DNA of 64,000 nt from Citrobacter gillenii (lineage in GTDB: Bacteria; Pseudomonadota; Gammaproteobacteria; Enterobacterales; Enterobacteriaceae): assembly GCF_013337685.1 (NCBI RefSeq), contig NZ_SUQN01000004.1:1-64000 (forward strand), in the 5' to 3' direction. Below the pieces are notes generated by a model that saw only the letters and a program-made list of their open reading frames with translations, was not told the origin of the DNA and made no database searches. A program made the position numbers and the translations under genes. Shown here one piece after another: positions 993 to 20,054 of this stretch (its first letter is position 1; each line of letters starts with the position of its first letter).

Positions 993-1997
993 TCAGAAAA
1001 CGGGTAATCCCAGCCCACACTTCACTTCCCTTACTGTTTTCTGCGTGACGTCGTGCGCCCGCTCGCTCCCTTTTTGCAATAGCGCCATCAACATGCCCTT
1101 ATCCTGGATGTAGGTCGCACGGCGTTCTCGCATGGGGGCAATGAGTTCTTGTAAACACACCTCCAGCTCATTTTTACAGGTTTTATCCCCCAGCCCGCCT
1201 TGTTGATAGTTCGCTTTCATCTCCGCAACTTTTGCTTTGTTCGGGTGAAATGCGTCCAGATATGTGAACACTATATTGCCGTCTATCTGCCCCGGGTCGG
1301 TCACTTTTAAATGGTGAGGGTCGGTGTACATGGCGCTGACCGCGCGATGAATGGCCTCTTCGCTGGCAGAAAGGAGCAACGTATTGCCAAGTGATTTCGA
1401 CATTTTGGCGTTGCCGTCGATACCCGGGAGGCGGCTGGTTTCGCTGAGCATTGCCTTACAATGCTGTAAAACGGGAGTCGGTAACAGGTTATTCATCTTA
1501 TGTACAATTTCGTTAGTCTGCTCGAGCATCGGTAATTGATCGTCGCCGACGGGAACAACGTTGGCTTTGAAGGCCGTAATATCTGCCGCCTGGCTGATCG
1601 GGTAAACCAGGAAACCAACCGGCAAAGAGCGGGCGAACCCTTTTTGCATAATTTCATTTTTTACCGTTGGGTTACGCTCTACGCGCGCCACGGTAACAAT
1701 GTTCATATAAAGCGCAGTCAGTTCAGCAAGTGCCGGTAGAGCAGACTGCAAGCAAATTGTCGTGAGTGAAGGATCAATCCCTGCGGCAAGATAATCGGCG
1801 AGCACTTCGGGGATGTTATTGCGGATCTTTTGCGGATTGCTGCCGTTATCGGTAAGCCCCTGAAGATCCGCGACCAGCACAAACTGTTGATAGTCACGTT
1901 GCAGGGCAACACGCTGGCGTAGCGAGCCAACAAAGTGGCCGAGATGTAATGGGCCGGTTGGGCGATCGCCAGTAAGAATAATGGTTTTGTTGTTCAT
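993..1997 (-). CDS. trpS2: auxiliary tryptophanyl-tRNA synthetase (TrpS2 type)
   Basis: This 334-residue class I aminoacyl-tRNA synthetase should charge tRNA(Trp) with tryptophan in the cytoplasm. The HIGH-type ATP motif is HLGH at residues 18-21 and the KMSKS loop is intact at 198-202. The sequence is clearly distant from the housekeeping E. coli TrpS (whose first motif reads TIGN), so it is most likely a second enzyme, with the standard trpS elsewhere on the chromosome. The start at 1997 is chosen for GGAGT seven bases upstream. A leader peptide with two Trp codons and a terminator hairpin precede the gene, implying induction when charged tRNA(Trp) runs low. Second TrpRS enzymes in other bacteria give resistance to TrpRS-directed antibiotics such as indolmycin; that role here is inference. 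Confidence 0.85.
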   Translation of the reverse strand: MNNKTIILTGDRPTGPLHLGHFVGSLRQRVALQRDYQQFVLVADLQGLTDNGSNPQKIRNNIPEVLADYLAAGIDPSLTTICLQSALPALAELTALYMNIVTVARVERNPTVKNEIMQKGFARSLPVGFLVYPISQAADITAFKANVVPVGDDQLPMLEQTNEIVHKMNNLLPTPVLQHCKAMLSETSRLPGIDGNAKMSKSLGNTLLLSASEEAIHRAVSAMYTDPHHLKVTDPGQIDGNIVFTYLDAFHPNKAKVAEMKANYQQGGLGDKTCKNELEVCLQELIAPMRERRATYIQDKGMLMALLQKGSERAHDVTQKTVREVKCGLGLPVF

Positions 1998-2041
1998 GTC
2001 AGACTCCTTAGTCATCAAACCGAAAGGGGTCTTTCAAATGC

Positions 2042-2067
2042 AAATAACCGCCTTTCGGCGGTTATTT
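2042..2067 (-). terminator. attenuator terminator hairpin upstream of trpS2
   Basis: Read on the minus strand this is a perfect 11-bp stem, AAATAACCGCC and GGCGGTTATTT, closed by a GAAA tetraloop. It sits between the Trp-rich leader peptide and trpS2, 44 bases before the trpS2 start codon. The 3' tract is only moderately T-rich (TTATTTGCATTTG). It would form strand pair 3:4 of a classical attenuator. Confidence 0.75.
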
Positions 2068-2087
2068 AAAATGGGGAAAACACATTC

Positions 2088-2111
2088 TGGCCGCCTTTAA
2101 GAAGGCTGCCA
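2088..2111 (-). promoter_or_regulatory. 1:2 (pause) hairpin of the Trp attenuator
   Basis: On the minus strand the 24 bases fold as TGGC-AG-CCTT, a four-base loop, AAGG-CG-GCCA. The first TGG is the second Trp codon of the leader peptide and the stop codon is in the loop. Its 3' strand contains GGCGG (2091-2095), which can instead pair with CCGCC in the 5' arm of the terminator (2057-2061). A ribosome stalled on the Trp codons would mask the 5' strand and favour that alternative pairing. Confidence 0.6.
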
Positions 2112-2156
2112 CCACAGGTTGTTATTAACGCTGTTTACATCGTGTTTTGTATTCAT
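2097..2156 (-). CDS. Trp leader peptide for trpS2 attenuation
   Basis: A 19-codon frame encodes MNTKHDVNSVNNNLWWQPS, with two consecutive TGG codons four codons before the stop. An in-frame TAA lies immediately before the ATG, so no upstream start is possible. No Shine-Dalgarno sequence is visible. A promoter-like pair places the transcript start at about the ATG, so the message could be leaderless. The frame is followed directly by competing hairpins and then trpS2, the arrangement of amino-acid biosynthetic attenuators. I infer that it senses charged tRNA(Trp). Confidence 0.7.
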   Translation of the reverse strand: MNTKHDVNSVNNNLWWQPS

Positions 2157-2162
2157 TTAATG

Positions 2163-2191
2163 AACATATCATGGTGTGATGAAGAGGTAAA
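2163..2191 (-). promoter_or_regulatory. candidate sigma70 promoter for the trpS2 leader transcript
   Basis: On the minus strand TTTACC (2186-2191) and TATGTT (2163-2168) are separated by 17 bases, each matching four of six consensus positions. Transcription would start about 2156-2157, at the ATG of the leader peptide. Read-through from the PhzF-like gene upstream is an alternative. Confidence 0.35.
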
Positions 2192-2230: not shown

Positions 2231-3034
2231 TTATCGCGCGTTCTCACGCAACTGTACTTTACCTGTCAGATACGTTGTGGCTTGACCACCAATATGGACA
2301 CGATCGCCCACTAACTTGCAGCGTAAATCCCCGCCGCGCTCGGACACCTGGCGTGCCAGCATCTGTGTTTTGTTCAGTTTCTCAGCCCAGTATGGAATGA
2401 GCATGCTATGTGCCGAACCTGTGACAGGGTCTTCCGCAACGGCCTCGCCTGGGCAGAAGAAACGACTGACAAAATCGTATTCCCCATCGCCTGGCGCCGT
2501 AATGCAGACCATTTTTCCCAGCGGAAGCATGGCGTGAATATCCGGGCGTACTGCTGCAATCTGCTGCTGATTCTCCATAACGACCATGTAATCACGTGCC
2601 ACGCGGACTTCTTTGTATTCCGTGATACCCAGCGTTTCCAATAGTAAAGGCGGCGGTATAACCGATTCGGTATTCCAGGCGGGGAAATCAAGCGTCAGCC
2701 ATTCGCCACTGCGGGTCACGGTCAGCGGGCCAATAAATCGGGTTTCGAAGTGAATTGTGGTGTCCGGGTAGTCAAGATGTTCAAAGATGACGTGTGCAGC
2801 AGCCAGTGTGGCATGCCCGCATAAATTGATTTCACCCTGAGTGGTAAACCAACGTAGCTCAAAGCCGCTATCGGTGGTGACAAAGAAGGCGGTTTCTGAC
2901 TGGTTATGTTGCTGAGACATTTTTAATAATATCTCATCGGGCAACCATTCTGTAAGAGGACACACTGCGGCGGCATTGCCACCAAAAGTGGTGTTGGTAA
3001 AGGCATCTATCATGTAAAAATCAATGTGCTTCAT
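2231..3034 (-). CDS. PhzF-like isomerase/epimerase family protein
   Basis: This 267-residue protein belongs to the PhzF/diaminopimelate-epimerase fold family. Visible family motifs are an N-terminal DAFTNTTFGGNAAAV segment, SETAFF carrying the presumed catalytic Glu, CGHAT in the middle, and VAEDPVTGSAHSML toward the C terminus. It is not E. coli YddE, which diverges strongly in sequence. The start at 3034 begins the conserved MKHIDF segment and lies downstream of an AGAGGAC ribosome-binding site. The gene lies just upstream of the trpS2 leader on the same strand, 75 bases away. PhzF itself acts on a tryptophan-pathway branch compound, but substrates of relatives vary and none can be assigned here. 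Confidence 0.8.
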   Translation of the reverse strand: MKHIDFYMIDAFTNTTFGGNAAAVCPLTEWLPDEILLKMSQQHNQSETAFFVTTDSGFELRWFTTQGEINLCGHATLAAAHVIFEHLDYPDTTIHFETRFIGPLTVTRSGEWLTLDFPAWNTESVIPPPLLLETLGITEYKEVRVARDYMVVMENQQQIAAVRPDIHAMLPLGKMVCITAPGDGEYDFVSRFFCPGEAVAEDPVTGSAHSMLIPYWAEKLNKTQMLARQVSERGGDLRCKLVGDRVHIGGQATTYLTGKVQLRENAR

Positions 3035-19489: not shown

Positions 19490-19533
19490 TACATCTCACT
19501 CCAGACCATATCCTAAGTTCCTGAGAATACTCC

Positions 19534-19549
19534 AGGTAAACGTTTGCCT
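19534..19549 (-). promoter_or_regulatory. PurR operator O1 upstream of purR
   Basis: AGGCAAACGTTTACCT on the minus strand, 13 of 16 positions matching the PurR consensus ACGCAAACGTTTGCGT with the core intact. Located 45 bases upstream of the purR start codon. Confidence 0.8.
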
Positions 19550-19786
19550 TCACACACCCTTCGCGCAACATCAGGGTTGCGGTACGCCAGGAAAACGACA
19601 CGGAACGTCAGGAAGGGGTCAATGGCCGGTACGCTAATCAAGTAAGCGTGGAATTTTGTCTGATCTTTACGAAAAGGGGAAGAGTTAAAAGCATTTATCA
19701 ATATAAATCGTGAGAGATTTTTACCTTCAAGTGTGCAAAAATGCGCAATATCACTTTTTGTGTGGGAATAAAAAGGAGAAAACTTG

Positions 19787-19876
19787 ATGAGCACCGATCT
19801 GAAATTTTCGTTAGTCACCACCATTATTGTTCTGGGTTTGATTGTTGCCAGTGGTTTAACCGCCGCGCTGCATTGA
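19787..19876 (+). CDS. ynhF: small membrane protein YnhF
   Basis: A 29-residue hydrophobic peptide (MSTDLKFSLVTTIIVLGLI then VASGLTAALH) that matches E. coli YnhF except at about one residue, in the same position between purR and ydhP. An AAAAGGAGAA ribosome-binding site lies 8 bases upstream. It is a single-span inner-membrane peptide of unknown function; it is easily missed because of its length. Confidence 0.93.
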   Translation: MSTDLKFSLVTTIIVLGLIVASGLTAALH

Positions 19877-20054
19877 TGTATCGCCGAGGGAGAGCTATCT
19901 CCCTCATCCCGCCAACCCGTCCTCCCACTGCTATTGTTTGCAAATAAGCAAAAGTCTTTTGCATTTTTGTTAACTTTATTATTTTTGCGATCAATGTCAT
20001 GCTTTTGACTCTTATTCTGTGTCGTGCCACGGCTCGACGTTACGGAGTCGCTGT

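Follow-up and report, generated by a model that had tools for sequence, protein, structure and literature searches.

A probable Trp-codon attenuator with a putative Shine-Dalgarno-covering strand upstream of the auxiliary tryptophanyl-tRNA synthetase gene trpS2 in Citrobacter gillenii and other bacteria

The trpS2 gene of Citrobacter gillenii, which encodes an auxiliary tryptophanyl-tRNA synthetase (TrpRS), is very probably controlled by a ribosome-mediated Trp-codon attenuator in which a downstream segment of the leader, strand 5, provides a probable lock on the trpS2 Shine-Dalgarno (SD) sequence. The gene is located within the 64,000-nt stretch of DNA that we analyzed (the window), and the features of its leader are listed in Table 1. 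The preliminary description of this DNA had placed a pair of TGG codons, two hairpins, a GGCGG strand with a CCGCC partner and a terminator stem in front of trpS2; inspection of the minus strand found all of these coordinates to be correct, base for base. The hairpin formed by strands 1 and 2 (1:2) has the sequence TGGCAGCCTTCTTAAAGGCGGCCA (2088-2111, minus strand), the CCGCC piece of strand 3 is at 2057-2061, and strands 3 and 4 form a perfect 11-bp stem (3:4) at 2042-2067 with a GAAA loop. The leader peptide of C. gillenii ends in Trp-Trp-Gln-Pro-Ser, and position 2191, the 5′ end of the candidate −35 hexamer, is the outer edge of the 1998-2191 element. The 151-nt leader has a predicted folding energy of −49.9 kcal/mol compared to −33.4 ± 4.25 kcal/mol for shuffled sequences (z −3.9; 0 of 200 were as low). 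No Rfam 15 family matched the trpS2 leader element at the gathering threshold. The sole Rfam match in the window at that threshold is the STnc550 sRNA (19490-19879, plus strand; E 2.9e-109) and not a T-box, and we therefore dropped a T-box identity for the leader.

Table 1 Features of the trpS2 leader and gene, with positions in the window.
Feature	Position	Strand	Basis
Candidate −35 hexamer TTTACC	2186..2191	-	Sequence; 17-nt spacing to −10; similar T-rich hexamers in relatives, by eye
Candidate extended −10 TATGTT, preceded by TG; would place +1 at the A of the leader ATG	2163..2168	-	84 dereplicated leaders
Leader ORF MNTKHDVNSVNNNLWWQPS, 19 codons plus TAA stop	2097..2156	-	Sequence; Trp-Trp kept in relatives
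Control codons TGG TGG	2109..2114	-	Sequence and upstream-region comparison
Strand 1, with the second TGG inside	2102..2111	-	Fold; 1:2 covariation between clades
Strand 2; antiterminator core GGCGG at 2091-2095	2088..2097	-	Nascent-RNA folding, covariation
Strand 3, 5′ arm of terminator stem; possible partner of strand 2, 4 or 5	2057..2067	-	Fold, covariation
GAAA loop of terminator stem	2053..2056	-	Sequence; loop co-changes with strand 5 in other clades
Strand 4, 3′ arm of terminator stem; modest T tract	2042..2052	-	Stem alignment, T counts
Strand 5 GACCCCTTTCGGT; possible partners GCC-GAAA-GGCGGTT (2046-2059) or the trpS2 SD	2019..2031	-	Covariation, folding
trpS2 SD AAGGAG, strand 6	2004..2009	-	Sequence
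trpS2, auxiliary tryptophanyl-tRNA synthetase (TrpRS II clade); start codon 1997-1995	993..1997	-	TIGR00233, 2a4m

Comparison of 164 regions upstream of trpS2 relatives, near-identical strains included, indicated that 143 of them contain a Trp-Trp leader according to one automatic rule, versus 8 of 3280 dinucleotide shuffles. These regions were taken from plasmid records and from genome contigs, a scan of which gave 67 loci. At strict E-values, 67 of 394 genomes from the order carry trpS2, as do 25 of the 398 in the phylum sample, and one (G518) of the 16 class-level matches supplied an upstream region. The leaders span the gamma-, alpha-, and betaproteobacteria and include one Deinococcus, with few named records from outside the Gammaproteobacteria (i.e. 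Methylocystis, Rhizobium, Variovorax, and the Deinococcus). Their peptides differ strongly between clades (MNINHAVLTVNRWWLPS, MNMTAFNHNYWWCCS, MKLNPIFALITTSWWHSLL, MKFNSASTSIFFWWCSI, and MTVSITSANLWWRST, with MKGKHAPCQAWWPGS in Deinococcus); what is constant is the Trp-Trp pair, the short tail to the stop (4-6 codons from the first Trp in 143/143 leaders that fit the rule) and the distance to the gene (about 111-195 nt, median 128). The preliminary description had read the element as a Trp-codon attenuator, a reading that was to fall if the TGG pair and hairpins were not conserved in orthologous leaders. Both hairpins (1:2 and 3:4) as well as the TGG pair and the spacing to the gene are found again in different families and classes, and these findings, together with the predicted formation of 2:3 in nascent RNA (see below), support that reading.

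Among the 21 of 164 regions that are exceptions to the rule, two carry Trp-Trp on inspection (L050, in which it is displaced by an insertion, and L109, which has a longer ORF), three have a single Trp (L048, L136, and L176), and in the other 16 we found neither a Trp-Trp nor a single-Trp leader (L141, L144-L148, L159, L168, L170, L171, L175, L177, L178, L183, L189, and L190). In L050 (Citrobacter amalonaticus, 2737-3000) the leader is intact and approximately 145 extra bases lie between strand 5 and the SD. L048 (Superficieibacter electus, 2886-3001) reads TTG-TGG, with one control Trp gone and the rest kept, and is a natural one-codon variant. A model of the leader (R1) gave 17 strong matches, all 17 of which are beside trpS2, and, in other genomes, seven weak ones (E 4.7e-4 to 0.009); G036 and G055, which both bear trpS2, were not recovered.

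The leader stays with trpS2 beside different neighbors, as seen on two E. coli plasmids, in Salinivibrio, and in Variovorax. This bears on the possibility that the hairpin merely terminates the upstream PhzF-family gene, which is on the same strand as trpS2 and ends at 2231, and that trpS2 is constitutive or controlled by a repressor such as TrpR. Consistent with the latter, the accessible text of one study reports that trpS2 expression falls together with that of mtr and the trp genes in a tolC mutant (PMC12506092), a drop that could reflect repressor control. However, the persistence of the leader beside other neighbors speaks against this explanation, which also leaves the Trp-Trp pair, 1:2, 2:3, and strand 5 unexplained; we consider it very improbable.

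The two E. coli plasmids (pKTa005_5, L162, and pB379_2, L163) have the leader intact with IS elements close by, and at the search sensitivity used they account for the only trpS2 matches in 5426 E. coli genomes, with no match on a chromosome. Seventeen of 40 listed plasmid matches, all from Klebsiella, cover only residues 80-334 of TrpS2 (e.g. NZ_CP096267.1, 25676-26440), and a transposase is annotated under three of these. At least 23 Staphylococcus plasmid records among the matches listed carry a trpS of the TrpRS II type; the one that was read, a Staphylococcus epidermidis plasmid (L170), has no Trp-Trp leader.

To assess covariation we calculated duplex energies for strands belonging to one and the same leader and set them against the energies obtained after strands had been exchanged between clades. 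With 42 representatives from 22 clades, which were picked, as were the loop positions, after viewing the sequences, with L136, L141, L176, L091, and L169 excluded and the clades partly non-independent, pairing of strand 3 with strand 5 (3:5) gave the strongest signal (z −10.6), followed by 1:2 (z −7.7), strand 5 with the SD (5:SD; z −6.4) and 2:3 (z −2.3, p about 0.015). When each leader was compared with shuffled partners of its own, z was below −1 in 22/22 clades for 3:5, 21/22 for 1:2, 20/22 for 2:3, and 13/22 for 5:SD. Three of four control pairings were null in the clade shuffle (the apex with the 2-3 spacer, strand 1 with strand 5, and strand 2 with the SD); the fourth, in which the 2-3 spacer was paired with the strand-5 region, reached significance (z −4.2), and we ascribe this to the base of the 3:4 stem. 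Results from an earlier run, on 28 representatives in 10 clades, were in agreement. Applied to 34 near leaders, RNAalifold returned no helix besides 1:2 and 3:4, with compensatory change in 3 of 15 predicted pairs, all within 3:4; strand 5 becomes visible in the wider set.

The five-pair 2:3 helix had been regarded in the preliminary description as a weak point. This objection is eased in part by co-changing helices of 5-7 bp in relatives (GGCGGT:ACCGCC, GGCGGCT:AGCCGCC, GGCGGCA:TGCCGCC, and AGCGGC:GCTGCT), and the weakness persists in the modest p value of the clade shuffle. The 3:5 helix is exemplified by GCCGAAAGGCGGTT with GACCCCTTTCGGT in Citrobacter, GCCATAAGGC with GTCTTATGGC in L109, and GCCGCCAGCCATGGC with GTCATGGCTGGCGGC in L187. 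Loop plus strand 4 was also tried as the partner of strand 5; with z −4.6, and with 9 of 22 clades standing out from shuffles, it fell short of strand 3 plus loop, which we therefore describe as the partner. In the Deinococcus leader (L169) no strand 5 was found (3:5 pairing z +0.5), and we therefore limit the six-strand reading to the Proteobacteria.

Folding of nascent RNA supports a switch of strand 2 between strands 1 and 3. With RNA ending just past the terminator loop, and with a stalled ribosome represented by a mask of 13 nt from the first TGG, the probability of 2:3 across 28 representatives rises from a mean of 0.08 when strand 1 is free to 0.93 when it is masked (0.00 to 1.00 for the C. 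gillenii leader). Outliers are L110 (0.06) and L143 (0.49), in which 2:3 stays low even with strand 1 masked, and L099 (0.83) and L109 (0.84), in which it is high even with strand 1 free. In equilibrium folding of the full leader, 3:4 persists with strand 1 masked (mean 0.84 versus 0.92 when free in the 28 representatives; 1.00 in both states for C. gillenii) and is clearly lower under the mask only in L119, L109, and L087, while L099 lacks 3:4 in any state. Because 3:4 wins in both states at equilibrium in most representatives, the switch must be kinetic. A kinetic mechanism is accepted for trp attenuation.

In the full-length leaders the trpS2 SD is mostly paired (mean accessibility 0.19 in the 28 representatives), although leader by leader this is unexceptional, since an average of 29% of shuffles have an accessibility no higher than the native one. 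Enforcing 3:5 raises mean accessibility to 0.40, compared to 0.31 with shuffled spacers, and lowers it in 4 of 28 leaders (L088, L099, L116, and L117). The 3:5 state is on average approximately 6 kcal/mol above the minimum and so would have to be a kinetic trap. A relay in which 2:3 by itself would release the SD was rejected, as mean accessibility rises from 0.19 to 0.23 only, with a clear rise confined to C. gillenii, L034, and L065. Plain transcription attenuation as in trp, with strand 5 an accessory that has no translational role, would fit the small influence of strand 5 on SD accessibility as well as the classical order of strands 1-2-3-4 and the kinetic switching of 2:3. Against this, 3:5 is the most strongly covarying helix, beyond shuffled spacers in every clade, and 5:SD covaries as well, so that we regard plain attenuation as unlikely, if still a serious contender. 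The strength of the 3:5 covariation leads us to view a translational layer acting through strand 5 as likely, with modest support from folding.

The T tract that follows strand 4 had been called modest in the preliminary description, and it is still a weak point. In C. gillenii there are 5 Ts in the best 8 nt when counted from the G-C core and 3 when counted from the full stem, and scanning of 1900-2500 for terminator patterns that include a U run gave no match. Over the relatives the verdict varies with where the end of the stem is placed: at least 5 Ts occur in an 8-nt stretch of the next 16 nt in 74 of 98 leaders with a recognized G-C core (of 122), whereas after the full stem 5 or more Ts in 8 occur in 13 of 42 representatives, including four of five Vibrio-like leaders and not that of C. 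gillenii. The G-C-core count had suggested that Enterobacteriaceae-like leaders have a good U tract and Vibrio-like leaders a poor one; since the full-stem recount went the opposite way, we claim no clade pattern. These observations bear on whether the Trp codons act on translation only, with 3:4 an inefficient terminator and the stall deciding whether strand 5 covers the trpS2 SD. Such an arrangement would account for the covariation of 5:SD and 3:5 and for the modest T tract and empty terminator scan, and the hairpins of the Streptomyces lividans trpL2 leader are likewise described, in the accessible part of that report, as being without a U-rich stretch (PMC8079986). It sits poorly with the T counts taken from the G-C core, with the perfect 11-bp stem of C. 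gillenii, and with the only partial freeing of the SD by enforced 3:5, and we think it improbable. It is likely that the trpS2 leader has both outputs, termination and translation.

The leader ORF appears to be leaderless, judging by the register of its promoter. We took the start to be the ATG giving about 17 codons (those of L059, L166, and L174 were moved by hand) and scored the leaders with −10 weights and a 16S tail that we assumed. Over 84 dereplicated leaders a sharp maximum of the mean −10 score (1.54) lies where the hexamer ends 6 nt before the ATG, and the other spacings listed, between 0 and 25 nt, all score no higher than zero. Base frequencies relative to the ATG in these leaders (T-15 70%, G-14 77%, T-12 65%, A-11 81%, T-7 80%) are those of an extended −10 promoter with +1 on the A of the ATG. 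Pairing with the 16S tail averages −2.9 kcal/mol before the leader ATG and −7.8 kcal/mol before trpS2 (66 leaders each), versus −2.3 kcal/mol in control DNA (84), i.e. no SD was found before the leader ATG, where pairing is near that of control DNA. One exception is a Proteus leader (L160), with a GTG start and an SD-like AAGGA.

Taken together, these analyses lead us to infer a course of events, from trigger and stall through termination or its relief to release of the SD. RNA polymerase would start at the A of the leader ATG, and the 19-codon leader would be translated without an SD. When Trp-tRNA is ample, the ribosome would pass both TGG codons, 1:2 and then 3:4 would form, and many transcripts would end past 3:4; in those that read through, strand 5 would pair with the trpS2 SD. 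Under a shortage of Trp-tRNA, the ribosome would wait at TGG-TGG and cover strand 1, 2:3 would pair before strand 4 is made, and transcription would continue. After read-on, strand 5 could pair with strand 3 and the opened terminator loop, freeing the SD.

Whether the proteobacterial trpS2 leader is, more broadly, one old cassette inherited with TrpRS II seems to us evenly balanced. Such a cassette would combine a leaderless Trp-Trp leader with a six-strand switch (1:2, 3:4, and 5:SD versus 2:3 and then 3:5), in which strand 5 would read closure of the terminator hairpin so that leaky transcripts go untranslated unless the ribosome has stalled. One stall would thus have two outputs, the ON state would be metastable and outlast the stall, and the Deinococcus and Streptomyces leaders would represent an older form without strand 5. 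If this is true, a leader-peptide attenuator would have a two-level output, provided by a strand that both detects the terminator hairpin and protects the ribosome-binding site. The leaderless register, kept across classes, would suit the leader as a model of attenuation without a 5′ untranslated region.

The enzyme encoded downstream is a spare. TrpS2 scores above the cut-off of TIGR00233, and its closest solved relative is 2a4m, ‘Tryptophanyl-tRNA synthetase II’, which we take to be a Deinococcus protein. The main TrpRS, 28% identical to TrpS2, is encoded elsewhere in the genome, which therefore has two TrpRS genes. Among the tested genomes, a second TrpRS is present in 18 of the 19 that have a Trp-Trp leader versus 2 of the 12 that lack any Trp leader (Fisher p 1.5e-5; the sample comprised all 12 fetched genomes without a Trp leader, 19 of those with a Trp-Trp leader and two with a single-Trp leader, one of which has a second TrpRS and one of which does not). 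The leader thus goes with the spare enzyme and not with TrpRS II as such. At the place aligned to Bacillus His43, Gln is found in 87 of 88 TrpS2 entries, duplicates included (in the remaining entry, L026, 42% identical, the motif was not recognized), and in eight further TrpRS II proteins, whereas the main TrpRS has His. According to the accessible part of the source, H43N, which in Bacillus numbering replaces the indolmycin-contacting His, confers indolmycin resistance (PMC4899734), making it plausible that TrpS2, with Gln in place of His43, is less sensitive to indolmycin.

Defense against TrpRS inhibitors is a plausible role for the trpS2 leader, and Trp limitation or a TrpRS-inactivating kinase could equally be the trigger; a HipA-type kinase is reported to inactivate TrpS in Caulobacter (PMC8545095, in the text available). 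The published Salmonella data agree with an attenuator in part. In the available portions of these reports, Salmonella trpS tolerates insertions, which the authors credit to trpS2 (PMC3487940), and trpS2 is 2-fold up together with the trp genes in biofilm (PMC2805695). For many Gram-negative bacteria the leader would provide a control logic for their spare TrpRS, which in some cases is plasmid-borne, such that this enzyme is on only if Trp-tRNA charging fails, with a bearing on tolerance to TrpRS inhibitors and to TrpS-inactivating HipA-type kinases.

The logic of the attenuator is not new, since attenuators of Streptomyces trpS genes have already been described. Ribosome-mediated attenuation of an auxiliary antibiotic-resistant TrpRS gene is reportedly the subject of a 2010 paper by Vecchione and Sello, to go by its title. 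The accessible text of Seliverstov 2005 (PMC1262725) predicts a trpS2 attenuator in S. avermitilis and names pheST among enteric attenuated genes. In the open-licence literature searched we found no description of the trpS2 leader element outside the Actinobacteria. Within the reach of that search, three points are new: the occurrence of the element in a Deinococcus as well as throughout gamma-, alpha-, and betaproteobacteria, its leaderless register among Gram-negative hosts, and the fifth strand.

With the Streptomyces trpS/trpRS1 attenuators, in so far as their published descriptions are accessible, the trpS2 leader shares a Trp-codon leader peptide, alternative hairpins, and an auxiliary TrpRS gene downstream; it differs in having two Trp codons and Gram-negative hosts, and perhaps in its strand 5, which can cover the SD. 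The leaderless Trp leader before an auxiliary trpS also appears to be shared with Streptomyces, a likeness drawn from the available description of the leaderless S. lividans trpL2 leader MMTRTCTQLWRAA (PMC8079986) on the one hand and from promoter register on the other, and S. meliloti rnTrpL likewise begins at the ATG of trpL (PMC7298713, in the text available). In both pheM-pheST and trpS2, an enteric synthetase gene is placed under a leader peptide with cognate codons. PheRS, whose genes have pheM as their leader, is a housekeeping enzyme, whereas trpS2 encodes a spare, and we know of no SD-covering strand for pheST. Trp codons and strands 1-2-3-4 are shared with the E. coli trp leader and S. 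meliloti rnTrpL, both of which control biosynthesis and have termination as their output. Its probable sequestration of the SD likens the trpS2 leader to erm-type translational attenuators and to the TRAP-controlled trpE of Bacillus subtilis, in which sequestration comes in addition to termination; erm senses a drug-stalled ribosome, and in the case of trpE the sensor is a protein, TRAP.
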